From positions 186,001 through 250,000 of the forward strand of contig NZ_JAHKRT010000005.1 in assembly GCF_018863195.1 (NCBI RefSeq): a stretch of 64,000 nt of DNA, given 5' to 3'. Below, in pieces: positions 47,960 to 51,861 of the stretch (within the stretch, counting starts at the first letter, position 1; each line of letters starts with the position of its first letter). Under the pieces are notes generated by a model, which did no database searches, had not been told where the DNA came from, and saw nothing but the letters and a program-made list of their open reading frames with translations. Origin of the DNA: Sphingomonas quercus (lineage in GTDB: Bacteria > Pseudomonadota > Alphaproteobacteria > Sphingomonadales > Sphingomonadaceae). Position numbers and translations under genes: made by a program.

Positions 47960-50038
47960 TCAGGAACTCGCGCGTGCCGCCAGCAGGCCGGAAGTCAGCA
48001 CCTGTGGCAGGATCTCGGCAGGCTTGCCCGGCGCGTACCACAAATAGAGCGGCACGCCGGAGCGGCCCTGTGCCTCGATGAAGCGGCCAATCGCCGCATC
48101 GCCGCGCGTCCAGTCGCCAACCAGCACCGCCACCTTGCCCTTGTGGAAGGCTTCGGCGGTCTCGGCACGCTCGATCGCGGCCTTCTCGTTGACCTTGCAG
48201 GTGAGGCACCAGTCGGCGGTGAAATAGACGAACACCGGCCGGCCCTCCGCCTGCAACGCGGCGAGGCGGTTCTCGCTGAACGGTTCGGATGCCAGCGCGT
48301 CCGTGGCGGCGGCAGCTTGCGCGGGCAGCACTGATTGCGGGACGAAACCGATCGCGGCCGCCGCGACGATCGCCGCGGGGGCCAGCGCCAGCCAGCCGCG
48401 CCCGCGTCCCGTCGCCTGCCGCCGGCCATAAGCCCACAGGCCGAGCCCGATGGCGAGTGCGGCGGCCAGCCCGATCACCATCCCGTCGACACCGGCCTGC
48501 CGCCCGAGGATCCACGCGAGGCCGAGCGCGGTGAGGAACATCGGGATGGCGAGGATGTGGCGGAAACGATCCATCCACGCCCCGGGCCGGGGCAGCATCC
48601 GCCGGAATGCCGGCACGAAGCCGAGCAGCAGGAAGGGCAGCGCAAGGCCGAGGCCAAGGCCGCCGAACACCGCGAGCGCGGCTGCCGGCGGCAGCACCAG
48701 CGCGGCGCCGAGCGCGCCGGCCATGAACGGGCCGGTGCACGGCGTCGCCACGAAGGCGGCGAGCGCGCCGGTCCAGAAGGCGCCCTTGGTCCCGCCCTGC
48801 GCGGCGAGGCTGTCACCGCCGGCGATCACCGCCAGCTCGAACAGGCCGGCAAGATTGAGCGCGATCGCCGTCACCAGCACCAGCAGGAACAGGATGACGC
48901 GCGGATCCTGGAGCTGGAACGCCCAACCCGCCGCCGATCCCGCGGCGCGCAGGCCAAGCAGCACGCCGCCGAGCGCCAGGCAGACCAGCACGACGCCGGC
49001 GGTATAGGCGACCGCTTCCCTGCGCGGGGCATGGCTGTCATCGCCGGCACGCGCCAGGCTCAGCGCCTTGAGGCTGAGGATCGGGAAGACGCAGGGCATG
49101 ATGTTGAGCAGCAGCCCGCCGAGCAGTGCGCCGCCGAGCGCGAGGAGAAAGGTGCCGCCGCCGGGGCCGCTGCCACCCTGCTCATCCGATGCGCCGTTGG
49201 CGGCGACGGGCGTGCCATCGGCAGGCACCGCCCCGGGGACCGCGCGGAATTGCAGACCCTGTCCGTTGCCGATGCGCAGCACGCCCTCGACCGGGCCATT
49301 GACCGCGCCGGCCGCCTTGGTGGCGATGACCAGCATGTCGCCGTTGCGGGTGATCCTCTGCGGCGCGGCATAGTCGACCGCGCCGTCGGTCAACGCGAAG
49401 AAATGCGGCGTGGCGACGCGCATCGACGCAGGCAGGGGCACGGCCATCCGGAAATTGCCGCCCGCCACGGCATAGCGCACCTGCTGGTCGAGCGGCCGAG
49501 GCATCGCCGCGCGCCAGCCGTCGAACGCGGCGCGGGCGGAGGCGTCGGGAGTGCCGTCGCCAACCTTTAGGTCGATGGCGAGGCTGGTGGTGGCCGGCAC
49601 GCAAATCTGCTCGGTGCATTCCAGCCAGTCGAGTTTGACACGGACCGGCAGCGCGCTGCCCCTGGCCAGCCCCTTCGGCACGGTCAGCCGCACGAGATGG
49701 GCGTAGGGCGCCTCGTAGACATGGTTCATGAGGCCGGCGATCATCAACGTCGTCGGCACCGGATAGGCGAGCGGCCCGGCGCTGACGCCTTTGGGCAGCG
49801 TCCAGTGCGCCTCGGTTTCGAGGCCGCTATTGCCCGGGTTCTTCCAATAGCCGTGCCAGCCCGGCTGCGGCGTCCAGCGAATGGCGAGGGTCGTCGTCGC
49901 GCCGGCCGCCGGTGCCATGCTCTCGGCGACGAGCTGGGCGCGGATATGCGGCTGGCCGCCGCCCAATTGGGCAAGGGCCGGCACCGCGCCGAGAATGAGA
50001 TAGAGGACCGCAACAAGTCCGACACGAAGACGATCCAT
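47960..50038 (-). CDS. dsbD: Thiol:disulfide interchange protein DsbD
   Basis: Carries reducing power from the cytoplasm to the periplasm. The 692-residue protein has a signal peptide, an N-terminal DsbC-binding domain (about 25-260), and an eight-helix membrane domain. The two redox cysteines of that domain are in NIMPCVFPILSLKALSLA and VATPCTGPFMAGALGAAL. A C-terminal thioredoxin domain has CLTC (FTADWCLTCKVNE). The start MDRLRVGLVAV at 50038 gives the signal peptide; an upstream extension to 50170 is not needed. Confidence 0.93.
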   Translation of the reverse strand: MDRLRVGLVAVLYLILGAVPALAQLGGGQPHIRAQLVAESMAPAAGATTTLAIRWTPQPGWHGYWKNPGNSGLETEAHWTLPKGVSAGPLAYPVPTTLMIAGLMNHVYEAPYAHLVRLTVPKGLARGSALPVRVKLDWLECTEQICVPATTSLAIDLKVGDGTPDASARAAFDGWRAAMPRPLDQQVRYAVAGGNFRMAVPLPASMRVATPHFFALTDGAVDYAAPQRITRNGDMLVIATKAAGAVNGPVEGVLRIGNGQGLQFRAVPGAVPADGTPVAANGASDEQGGSGPGGGTFLLALGGALLGGLLLNIMPCVFPILSLKALSLARAGDDSHAPRREAVAYTAGVVLVCLALGGVLLGLRAAGSAAGWAFQLQDPRVILFLLVLVTAIALNLAGLFELAVIAGGDSLAAQGGTKGAFWTGALAAFVATPCTGPFMAGALGAALVLPPAAALAVFGGLGLGLALPFLLLGFVPAFRRMLPRPGAWMDRFRHILAIPMFLTALGLAWILGRQAGVDGMVIGLAAALAIGLGLWAYGRRQATGRGRGWLALAPAAIVAAAAIGFVPQSVLPAQAAAATDALASEPFSENRLAALQAEGRPVFVYFTADWCLTCKVNEKAAIERAETAEAFHKGKVAVLVGDWTRGDAAIGRFIEAQGRSGVPLYLWYAPGKPAEILPQVLTSGLLAARASS

Positions 50039-50286
50039 CACCGCTCCCGCAAACACCCGCCGCCGCCATAGCATCGCGCACGGCCCGCTGCATGATCTGA
50101 CCGCCATATGGGTATGACGCAGTATTTTGCACGGGCGGCCACGACTTCGGCACGGAGCGGAACGTCGCACTGATCAGACTAGCGGTGACGGAAAGCAAGA
50201 CGCTGGCGGACACTCCCGCCATGTTCGGCCGCCAGGCATCGGCGCACGCCCGTCCCGGGCTGCGAAGTAAAAAAGCCGGCAGGCGC

Positions 50287-50311
50287 GGAACCCGCCCCGT
50301 CGAAGGGCGTT
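50287..50311 (+). promoter_or_regulatory. EcfG (general stress) type promoter
   Basis: GGAAC (50287-50291), exactly 16 bases, then CGTT (50308-50311) matches the alphaproteobacterial general stress promoter consensus GGAAC-N16/17-CGTT without mismatch. The expected transcription start is about 50317, immediately before the first of two hairpins. The next gene, an entericidin-like lipoprotein, starts 195 bases downstream. Entericidin-like genes are often under stress control. Confidence 0.72.
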
Positions 50312-50317
50312 CTCTAC

Positions 50318-50407
50318 TTCGGATAGCGACCTTTTGCCCCCCCGCTCTCGCTGTCCGAAATAAGGACCCGGACTGGCTGACCTCCCCCCGGCAGCCACTC
50401 CGGGTCC
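50318..50407 (+). ncRNA. Candidate stress-induced small RNA or leader: tandem hairpins with C-rich loops
   Basis: Hairpin 1: a 12-base-pair stem, TTCGGATAGCGA (50318-50329) with TCGCTGTCCGAA (50348-50359), and an 18-base loop containing CCTTTTGCCCCCCC. Hairpin 2: GGACCCGGA-C-TGGCTG (50364-50379) with CAGCCA-C-TCCGGGTCC (50392-50407), one C-C mismatch, and a 12-base loop ACCTCCCCCCGG. The stems start at the expected start point of the EcfG promoter. Exposed C-rich loops are the mark of anti-Shine-Dalgarno small RNAs in other alphaproteobacteria. No T-run follows, so it may be a processed 5' leader of the entericidin mRNA. The remainder of 50039-50511 shows nothing else recognisable. Confidence 0.55.
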
Positions 50408-50511
50408 AACTCGTTTGGGGCCGTTCGATTCACCGCCTTCGGGAACCTGCCGCGCACCGAAACATTCTTTTCCGCAAGGGCAGCCTGAGCTGTCGTAGTC
50501 TGGAGGAAGAC

Positions 50512-50664
50512 ATGGTTCGCAAGGCTGGTATGCGTGGGTTCGCGATGCTGACGATGACGGCAGCCGCGCTGCTGATCACCGCGTGCAATACGGTGTCGGG
50601 TGCCGGCAAGGACGTGTCCTCGGCCGGCAATGCCGTGTCGAAGGCGGCCGATAAGTCCAAATAA
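50512..50664 (+). CDS. Entericidin-like small lipoprotein
   Basis: A 50-residue protein, MVRKAGMRGFAMLTMTAAAL..., with the lipobox LITAC at 22-25/26 and a mature part NTVSGAGKDVSSAGNAVSKAADKSK, the entericidin A/B pattern. Entericidins are short outer-membrane-associated lipoproteins induced by stress. GGAGGAAG lies before the ATG. A stress-type promoter and tandem C-loop hairpins lie upstream, and one hairpin loop (CCTCC) is complementary to this ribosome binding site. Confidence 0.9.
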   Translation: MVRKAGMRGFAMLTMTAAALLITACNTVSGAGKDVSSAGNAVSKAADKSK

Positions 50665-50689
50665 GCCGATCGCGCGCGGGGGCGCGGTA

Positions 50690-51463
50690 TCAGGCGGCAG
50701 TCTCGCTGTCGTCGGTGCCGCGCTCCCGTGAACGCCGCCGCTCCGTGAACAGGATCGCGATCAGCGCGAACTCGTAGAGCGCCACCAGCGGGACGGCGAG
50801 CATCAGCTGGGATACCACGTCCGGCGGGGTCAGCACCGCCGCCACCGCGAAAGCGCCGACGATCGCGTAACGCCGTCCGGCCTTGAGCTGGTTGCGGGTG
50901 ACGATGCCCGCCTGTTCGAGCAGCATCAGCAGCACCGGCAGCAGGAATGCGACGCCGAAGCCGAACAGGAACTTCGTCACGAAATCCAGATAATTGCCGA
51001 CGCCCGGCAACGCCTGCTGGTCGACACCGCCGACATTGCCCTGATAGCTGAGCAGGAAGCGCAGCGCGAGTGGCATCGCGACGTAATAGGCGAGCGCGGC
51101 CCCCATCAGGAACAGCACCGGCGTCATCACCAGGAACGGCAGGAATGCCCGTTTCTCCTTGGCATAGAGGCCGGGGGCCACGAACTGCCAGATCTGGCTG
51201 GCGATCACCGGGAAAGAGATCATGATCGCGGCGAAGAACGCCACCTTCACTTCGACGAAGAACGCTTCGAAGATATTGGTGTAGATGAGCTTGCCCTGAC
51301 CGGCCCGCAGCAGCGGCTGCACTAAGAAGGCGAAGATCGGCTTGGCGAAATAGAGGCAGATGGCGAAGGCGAGGCCAAGCGCCGCGACGGCCCAGAGGAG
51401 CCTGCGCCGGAGCTCGATGAGATGCTCGAGCAGCGGCGCGCGGGTGTCGTCAATGTCCCTCAC
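50690..51463 (-). CDS. tatC: Sec-independent translocase protein TatC
   Basis: The twin-arginine signal receptor, 257 residues and six membrane segments. APLLEHLIELRRRLLWAV at the N-terminus, FVAPGLYAKEKRAFLPFLVMTPVLFLMGAALAYYVAMPLALRFLL in the middle and KFLFGFGVAFLLPVLLMLLEQAGIV near the end are typical. GTG start overlapping the tatB stop as GTGA. Last gene of tatA-tatB-tatC. Confidence 0.96.
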   Translation of the reverse strand: MRDIDDTRAPLLEHLIELRRRLLWAVAALGLAFAICLYFAKPIFAFLVQPLLRAGQGKLIYTNIFEAFFVEVKVAFFAAIMISFPVIASQIWQFVAPGLYAKEKRAFLPFLVMTPVLFLMGAALAYYVAMPLALRFLLSYQGNVGGVDQQALPGVGNYLDFVTKFLFGFGVAFLLPVLLMLLEQAGIVTRNQLKAGRRYAIVGAFAVAAVLTPPDVVSQLMLAVPLVALYEFALIAILFTERRRSRERGTDDSETAA

Positions 51464-51861
51464 GGCAGCGGCGGACCGGAGCGCGACGGCGTGACAGGCT
51501 GGGCTTCGCTTTCAGCAGGCGCGGCAGGCGCGGCAGGCCCCGTTTCGGCAGTCGCTTCCGGCGGGGCGCCATAGTCGAATTCGGACGTCGGCCCGGGAAT
51601 GGCTGGCGCAGGCGCGGACCCGTCCATCGGATGCTCGCGCATGATGCGGTCATTCTCCGATTTCCACCTCTTCTCCATCTCCTCCAACTCCGCCTCGCGG
51701 ACCATCTGGTCGAAGCCGGAGCGGAAATGGCGGGCGACGCCGCGGGCCTTGCCCACCCAGCGGCCGACGTGCCGCATCACGCGCGGCAGATCCTTCGGGC
51801 CGATGACGAGAAGCGCCACGACCGCCACGAGCAGCAGCTCGGTGGGTGCAATATCCAGCAT
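51460..51861 (-). CDS. tatB: Sec-independent translocase protein TatB
   Basis: A 133-residue protein with one N-terminal membrane helix (MLDIAPTELLLVAVVALLVIGPKDLPRVMR) and an amphipathic helix (VGRWVGKARGVARHFRSGFDQMVREAELEEMEKRW), then a Pro/Ala-rich tail. Glu in TELLL and the GPKDLP hinge are the TatB signature. Lies 27 bases after tatA. Confidence 0.95.
   Translation of the reverse strand: MLDIAPTELLLVAVVALLVIGPKDLPRVMRHVGRWVGKARGVARHFRSGFDQMVREAELEEMEKRWKSENDRIMREHPMDGSAPAPAIPGPTSEFDYGAPPEATAETGPAAPAAPAESEAQPVTPSRSGPPLP

Follow-up and report, generated by a model that had tools for sequence, protein, structure and literature searches.

A 64,000-nucleotide window of the Sphingomonas quercus genome (contig NZ_JAHKRT010000005.1, positions 186,001 to 250,000 of the forward strand) very probably contains the gene for a small regulatory RNA (sRNA) that carries two C-rich loops and is switched on by the general stress response (GSR). 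The element is likely to be a free-standing, stress-sigma-driven sRNA that resembles GsrN of Caulobacter crescentus and would use its C-rich loops to pair with G-rich stretches of messenger RNAs (mRNAs). Judged by the relatives found in other genomes, the combination of promoter and hairpins is beyond chance. All coordinates given below are those of the window.

Promoter, Hairpins, and Fold

The first-pass annotation of this DNA had described a stress promoter of the EcfG type followed by two hairpins. Direct reading bears out the promoter, GGAAC-N16-CGTT with 0 mismatches, and direct reading together with folding recovers the hairpins as annotated, including their coordinates, the 12-pair stem, the 15-pair stem with one mismatch, and both loop sequences (Table 1). 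The predicted RNA fold places two extra G-C pairs inside the loop of hairpin 1 and adds two C-G pairs to hairpin 2, which then has 17 pairs. Positions 50310–50430 fold with −53.8 kcal/mol, compared with −35.5 ± 3.3 kcal/mol for shuffled sequences (z = −5.6; 0 of 200 shuffles as good). Along with covariance model matches and covariation in relatives, this fold upholds the earlier claim of a small structured RNA. On the basis of promoter spacing, the 5′ end would lie at about 50316–50318, and hairpin 2 is perhaps also a terminator stem.

The promoter recurs in relatives at a nearly constant distance from the RNA. R1, a covariance model of the hairpins that includes the window among its 36 sequences, begins 3′ of the promoter, which therefore lies outside the model. 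In 40 inspected R1 matches (L099–L138), GGAAC-N15–18-GTT was found upstream in 35, a count that takes in all 40 loci, doubtful ones included. These loci were chosen from the R1 match list and are skewed to weak matches, and three of them (L136–L138) come from genomes also present in the alignment of R1. The promoter starts 28–31 bases before the model start in 34 of the 35 and at 38 bases in L121. Five matches do not have it: L103, which has a near match (GAAAC…GTT), L117, L119, L120, and L125. The control rate for GGAAC-N16–18-GTT was 12 in 16,645 overlapping 45-nucleotide windows. A further promoter count, 93 of 94, draws partly on rows that had been selected by pattern and is given no weight here. 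The promoter of the window and its relatives agrees with the motif GGAAC-N17–20-GTT reported for EcfG-regulated genes of S. melonis Fr1 (PMC6599016).

Covariation and the C-Rich Loops

Covariation indicates that the RNA structure is under selection. The largest alignment, A5, has 95 rows, of which 94 are distinct, and was fitted to the model structure, which favors that structure. All 26 of its pairs show two-sided changes, compared with a mean of 12.9 in shuffles, and standard pairs fill 97.0% of cells, compared with 83.2%. The covariation score is 0.427, compared with 0.163 for shuffles and at most 0.067 for slid structures. A5 includes 50 of the at least 120 pattern-matched named contigs described below. 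Five doubtful loci (L117, L119, L120, and L125, which have no promoter, and L121, with its promoter 38 bases upstream) were kept out of A5 and of the tally of 35 five-kilobase loci used below, which are those left once the five are removed; L179, L279, and L292 were kept out of A5 as near duplicates. An unfitted MAFFT alignment of 36 sequences (A3) points the same way, with two-sided changes in 17 of 26 consensus pairs. The first-pass annotation had named homologous loci as a check on its claim, and this check, when run, found compensatory changes in the stems and C-rich loops that are kept.

The loop of hairpin 1, with its run of 6–7 C, is nearly invariant in close relatives and among the best conserved alignment columns, while the stem around it changes with compensation. 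Some genomes hold two copies of a C-rich two-hairpin RNA: G004 (second copy L123:2446–2540), G239 (second copy L124), and G021 (L112 and L113). L112, L113, L123, and L124 are each preceded by an EcfG-type promoter of their own and differ in stem sequence, and tblastn found nothing matching phyR, the kinase, entericidin, or tatC near L113, L123, and L124. In L123 and L124, stem 1 differs and the C-rich loop is kept, in L123 letter for letter. Because the stem of hairpin 1 differs between copies and the loop is kept, the C-rich loop is probably the working part of the RNA.

C runs were counted in a set of 45 rows that leaves out those whose search pattern required the promoter and a C run; five of its members (L003, L004, L007, L008, and L009) were retrieved by BLAST with a query that spanned the promoter as well. 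Within the first 45 nucleotides, the longest C run reaches at least 5 in 43 rows and at least 6 in 42, and a run of at least 5 is present after nucleotide 50 in 43. Duplex prediction gives loop 1 energies of −15.4 and −18.6 kcal/mol with G runs and −5.4 kcal/mol with the Shine–Dalgarno sequence AAGGAGGU. For loop 2, the values are −14.3 and −14.8 kcal/mol with G runs, −10.1 kcal/mol with AAGGAGGU, and −10.3 kcal/mol with the entericidin ribosome-binding region. Given these counts and energies, what the family most generally shares is a C run that would target G-rich sequence.

Distribution

When positions 50280–50420 were compared by BLAST with 40 genomes, each of the 9 other members of the genus matched strongly, as did 2 of the 14 genomes from elsewhere in the family; the tally of 39 of 40 genomes at an expectation value (E) of at most 10 is mostly noise. 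A pattern for the core of hairpin 1, allowing up to 3 mismatches, matched 31 of 199 family genomes, and the reversed control had none among the matches listed. R1, built on the hairpins with the promoter left out, found matches at E ≤ 0.01 in 101 of 249 family genomes, from 44 of 96 genera, most matched genomes having one match each. R2, a covariance model built from 95 relatives, raised these numbers to 111 of 249 and 47 of 96, weak matches included.

A pattern scan of named genomes returned at least 120 stretches. Among the matches listed, the titles are mostly Sphingomonas, and the other genera are Sphingosinicella, Sphingomicrobium, Hephaestia, Stakelama, Rhizorhabdus, Sphingorhabdus, Sphingobium, Parasphingopyxis, Polymorphobacter, and Glacieibacterium. 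At least four of the matches listed come from other phyla (metagenome-assembled genomes of Dehalococcoidia, Bacillota, Planctomycetota, and Chitinophagales) and may be due to chance or mis-binning. Over 289 genomes of the class, R1 matched 8 at E ≤ 0.1, 2 of them within the family, and a scan at the level of the order matched 25 of 147 genomes, two of them outside the family and both weak (E 0.0012 and 0.0055). GGAA-N16–20-GTT is absent from positions 1300–1700 of the oriented loci L092–L097, the six R1 matches outside the family. One of these, L092:1501–1598 (G394, another family of the class; R1 E 5.7e-5), has tandem hairpins with the C-rich loops CCCCCCC and CCTCCCCC and no EcfG-type promoter; it could be either remotely related or analogous.

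In Rfam release 15, no family reaches its gathering cut-off at the locus in the window. The best match below cut-off is Scr3202 (22 of 52 bits), along with ar7 (15.9 of 60) and ar14 (15.0 of 58.8), and the loci of 20 relatives gave one tRNA only, away from the RNA. The sole Rfam match over cut-off in the window is a bacterial class A RNase P RNA at 1237–1602 on the minus strand. Separately, of 190 alphaproteobacterial genomes, 39 match Rfam CC2171 (RF01867) at E ≤ 0.001 and 7 of these exceed its cut-off. Its range may therefore be wider than the Caulobacter name implies, and for the same reason it was discarded as a marker of Caulobacteraceae.

Genomic Neighborhood

Table 1. Coordinates of the sRNA gene, its promoter and hairpins, and the surrounding features in the window
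Feature	Position	Strand	Remarks
EcfG-type promoter of the sRNA	50287..50311	+	−35 GGAAC at 50287–50291, 16-base spacer, −10 CGTT at 50308–50311; read directly
sRNA gene	50316..50416	+	Extent from the R1 match (109.7 bits; window sequence is part of R1); 3′ end approximate
Hairpin 1	50318..50359	+	12 pairs; 18-nucleotide loop CCTTTTGCCCCCCCGCTC at 50330–50347
Hairpin 2	50364..50407	+	15 pairs (9 + 6) around one mismatch; loop ACCTCCCCCCGG at 50380–50391
Second GGAAC element (GGAAC-N16-CATT)	50442..50466	+	Upstream of entericidin gene, probably serving it as a GSR promoter of its own
Entericidin-family small protein gene (PF08085)	50512..50664	+	Pfam; frequent downstream neighbor of the sRNA
tatC	50690..51463	−	Pfam; frequent neighbor, outside the sRNA
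tatB-like gene (PF02416)	51460..51861	−	Pfam; frequent neighbor
DsbD-like gene	47960..50038	−	Upstream; at the place of the GSR kinase in many relatives

The RNA is embedded in a recurring gene order. By tblastn over 82 loci, which count some genomes twice and include some doubtful matches, this order is phyR (−), a HWE/HisKA_2 kinase (+), the RNA (+), entericidin (+), tatC (−), tatB (−), and scpB (−). A kinase match is present in 38 of 42 three-kilobase loci. Of the 35 five-kilobase loci, 16 show phyR and the kinase upstream, oriented as usual, and 2 more (L112 and L127) have weaker or differently oriented matches; entericidin is matched in 26, tatC in 26, and either of the two in 28. A profile search on some of the genomes placed nepR between phyR and the kinase in G115, ~1.6 kb upstream of the RNA. 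The GSR proteins described for sphingomonads are the Paks, SdrG, PhyT, PhyR, NepR, and EcfG, and in S. melonis the gene for PhyT is part of the phyR locus (PMC5898713); by position and domain, the upstream kinase would be the equivalent of this PhyT.

In the genome from which the window is taken, the sRNA sits on contig C11, away from the core GSR genes, and nepR and a phyR-like frame are found together on contig C8 (L139, G000:C8:295803-298892), apart from the sRNA. No ecfG was noticed directly behind nepR at L139, no search having been aimed at ecfG. The DsbD-like gene upstream of the RNA in the window looks like a local rearrangement.

Downstream of the RNA, the second GGAAC element suggests that entericidin has its own GSR promoter. 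Its −10 sequence, CATT instead of CGTT, is frequent at this element among the printed examples from relatives. In Fr1, GGAAC…CATT is also reported upstream of an EcfG-dependent gene for a “Predicted small secreted protein” (PMC6599016), which, as a guess, may be the entericidin gene of the sRNA neighborhood.

Comparison with Known Small RNAs

The closest known model for the RNA of the window is GsrN of C. crescentus (ccna_R0081), an RNA of ~100 nucleotides with an EcfG/SigT promoter, a 5′ loop of six tandem C that pairs with G-rich RNAs, and an intrinsic-terminator hairpin at its 3′ end (PMC5869019, Tien et al. 2018). GsrN activates katG, its best-studied target, and relatives of gsrN are usually near phyR, nepR, or ecfG, C. 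crescentus itself being an exception; for E. litoralis, a Sphingomonadales outgroup, the same source reports no apparent gsrN-like gene (PMC5869019). Compared by description rather than sequence, the two RNAs share a stress-sigma promoter, size, a C-rich 5′ loop (a C run of at least 6 in 42 of the 45 relatives), and often the locus, which holds for the 16 loci with phyR and kinase upstream and not for the window's own genome. In contrast to GsrN as described, the window RNA has C runs in both hairpins, and a katG target is not evident for it. A loop pattern guessed from the GsrN target table (PMC5869019) matched 4 of 289 class genomes, as did the reversed control (also 4). A scan of 30 NepR loci and 20 wider regions, from genomes whose Caulobacteraceae membership was not established, found no convincing case of an EcfG-type promoter followed by C-rich hairpins.

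Other sRNAs with C-rich loops are more remote by description. CcsR of Rhodobacter (PMC10253847) has hairpins with C-rich loops and a link to stress, and the CCUCCUCCC families SmelA075/SmelA099 (PMC3927594) have C-rich hairpin loops, variable stems, and likewise a link to stress. However, CCUCCUCCC, which marks CcsR, SmelA075, and the ar14-like RNAs, is absent from the loops of the window RNA, and the window type mostly has one match per genome, unlike the CcsR/CCUCCUCCC families as described. CcsR further differs in its RpoHI/RpoHII promoter, as opposed to the EcfG-type promoter here, and in its DUF1127 neighbor, which was unmatched in the four neighboring proteins scanned (entericidin, DsbD-like, TatC, and TatB-like). 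SuhB of Sphingopyxis granuli (PMC6563040) is a characterized trans-acting sRNA of a sphingomonad, but by its description it is 61 nucleotides long and tied to growth rate and catabolite repression, which sets it apart.

Alternative Explanations

The first-pass annotation had proposed an anti-Shine–Dalgarno RNA. In its full form, this would be a repressor of the cuckoo, CcsR, or ar14 type (cuckoo being, presumably, a name for the CcsR/CCUCCUCCC group of RNAs), whose loops cover many ribosome binding sites and block translation. We consider such a repressor unlikely, even with a stress promoter and with CCUCCUCCC loops known in Rhizobiales (PMC3927594). In its favor, the loop of hairpin 2, ACCUCCCCCC, contains CCUCC and has favorable predicted energies with AAGGAGGU and with the entericidin ribosome-binding region. 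CCTCC occurs after nucleotide 50 in 62 of 94 distinct relatives, a count that includes rows fetched with a promoter and loop-1 pattern, the added rows being close relatives; in the 45 rows that were not pattern-selected, it is present in 19, compared with 43 for C runs of at least 5. The first 50 nucleotides contain CCTCC in 8 of 94 only, and loop 1 is predicted to pair poorly with the Shine–Dalgarno sequence and well with G runs. The low Rfam score for ar14 and the unmatched DUF1127 also argue against this type. The anti-Shine–Dalgarno claim thus survives in part for hairpin 2, for which such pairing is a real possibility, above all in the closer kin of the window, and does not hold for hairpin 1. 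The annotation's further claim that translation is blocked is less secure, GsrN being an activator of its best-studied target (PMC5869019).

The annotation had also allowed for a leader RNA. An RNA acting on entericidin as its 5′ leader or by read-through would suit the position of the entericidin gene, which is on the same strand ~100 nucleotides downstream in the window and near the RNA in most five-kilobase loci, as well as the weak terminator tail in the window. However, 62 of 93 relatives, pattern-selected rows included, have GGAAY-N15–18-[CG][AG]TT within the 260 nucleotides downstream of the RNA, compared with 52 of 1100 control windows; with such an element between RNA and entericidin in most relatives, the RNA is probably a separate transcript, and the leader becomes very improbable. 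The RNA is also kept without an entericidin match by tblastn in some relatives (e.g., L088–L090 and L133), and two C-rich loops on freely changing stems would better suit a trans-acting RNA. There is scarcely any room for an element that acts at the DNA or protein level only, such as a terminator serving the GSR kinase upstream or a protein-coding segment, with no sRNA. Hairpin 2 does resemble a terminator stem, and in the window a 159-codon open frame runs through the element, but the lengths of the relatives fall into all three classes modulo 3 (36, 31, and 27 of 94), and no single frame stays open throughout the 94 relatives (71 at most). The promoter in register before the hairpins and the conservation of the hairpin 1 loop also speak against it.

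Several results weigh against a free-standing GsrN-like sRNA. The T tract behind hairpin 2 is weak in the window (CGTTTGG), TTTT near the end of this hairpin is found in 24 of 45 relatives only, and a terminator scan of 50200–50700 returned none on the plus strand; because of the weak tract and the empty scan, the 3′ end is uncertain. An R2 match is absent in 138 of the 249 sampled family genomes, and a few weak matches look false (L119, L120, and L125); by eye, L119 (G202) and L120 (G057) have only a hairpin-2-like part in common with the RNA and are probably false. Both phyR and the kinase are unmatched in 17 of 35 five-kilobase loci. Word searches in the main text of two papers on sphingomonad EcfG turned up no sRNA except in a reference, and in open-licence PubMed Central literature listings no EcfG-driven sRNA of sphingomonads was recognizable. 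Finally, of the 10 genomes in the genus, 9 have katG, at 10 loci altogether, and GGGGG lies within 330 bases upstream in 3 of the 10 (L324, L327, and L328), none in the window's genome. On these counts, katG was rejected as a demonstrated target and is not supported as a general one. Upstream of katG in L327 and L328 the sequence is GGGGGCG, a form also present in the GsrN target table (PMC5869019).

Proposed Mechanism and Significance

For the free-standing sRNA, the following mechanism is proposed. EcfG, the general stress sigma factor, would direct RNA polymerase to transcribe an RNA of ~100 nucleotides, whose two hairpins would hold the C-rich loops open. The loops would pair with G-rich stretches of many mRNAs, mostly in leaders, and pairing would alter translation or stability of the mRNA under stress, much as GsrN of Caulobacter does via the six C of its 5′ loop. 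Hairpin 2 may double as terminator and second pairing site, and in those relatives whose loop has CCUCC, it could cover Shine–Dalgarno sequences as well. The sign of regulation may differ by target.

A broader proposal, which we put forward tentatively and hold to be plausible rather than probable, is that the RNA represents the sphingomonads' own core stress sRNA family. Often at the phyR locus and with two C-rich seed loops, one of them on a terminator-type hairpin, such an RNA could grip two G-rich sites at once, e.g., a G run and a Shine–Dalgarno site, and would be the post-transcriptional arm of the EcfG response.

The family is defined by its promoter, boundaries, loops, and neighbors and is thus ready for testing. 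The general stress response of sphingomonads is known at the protein level (PMC5898713), and the sRNA would add a post-transcriptional arm to it. A conserved sRNA that is often at the phyR locus would suggest that sRNAs with C-rich loops belong to the stress response of alphaproteobacteria in general.
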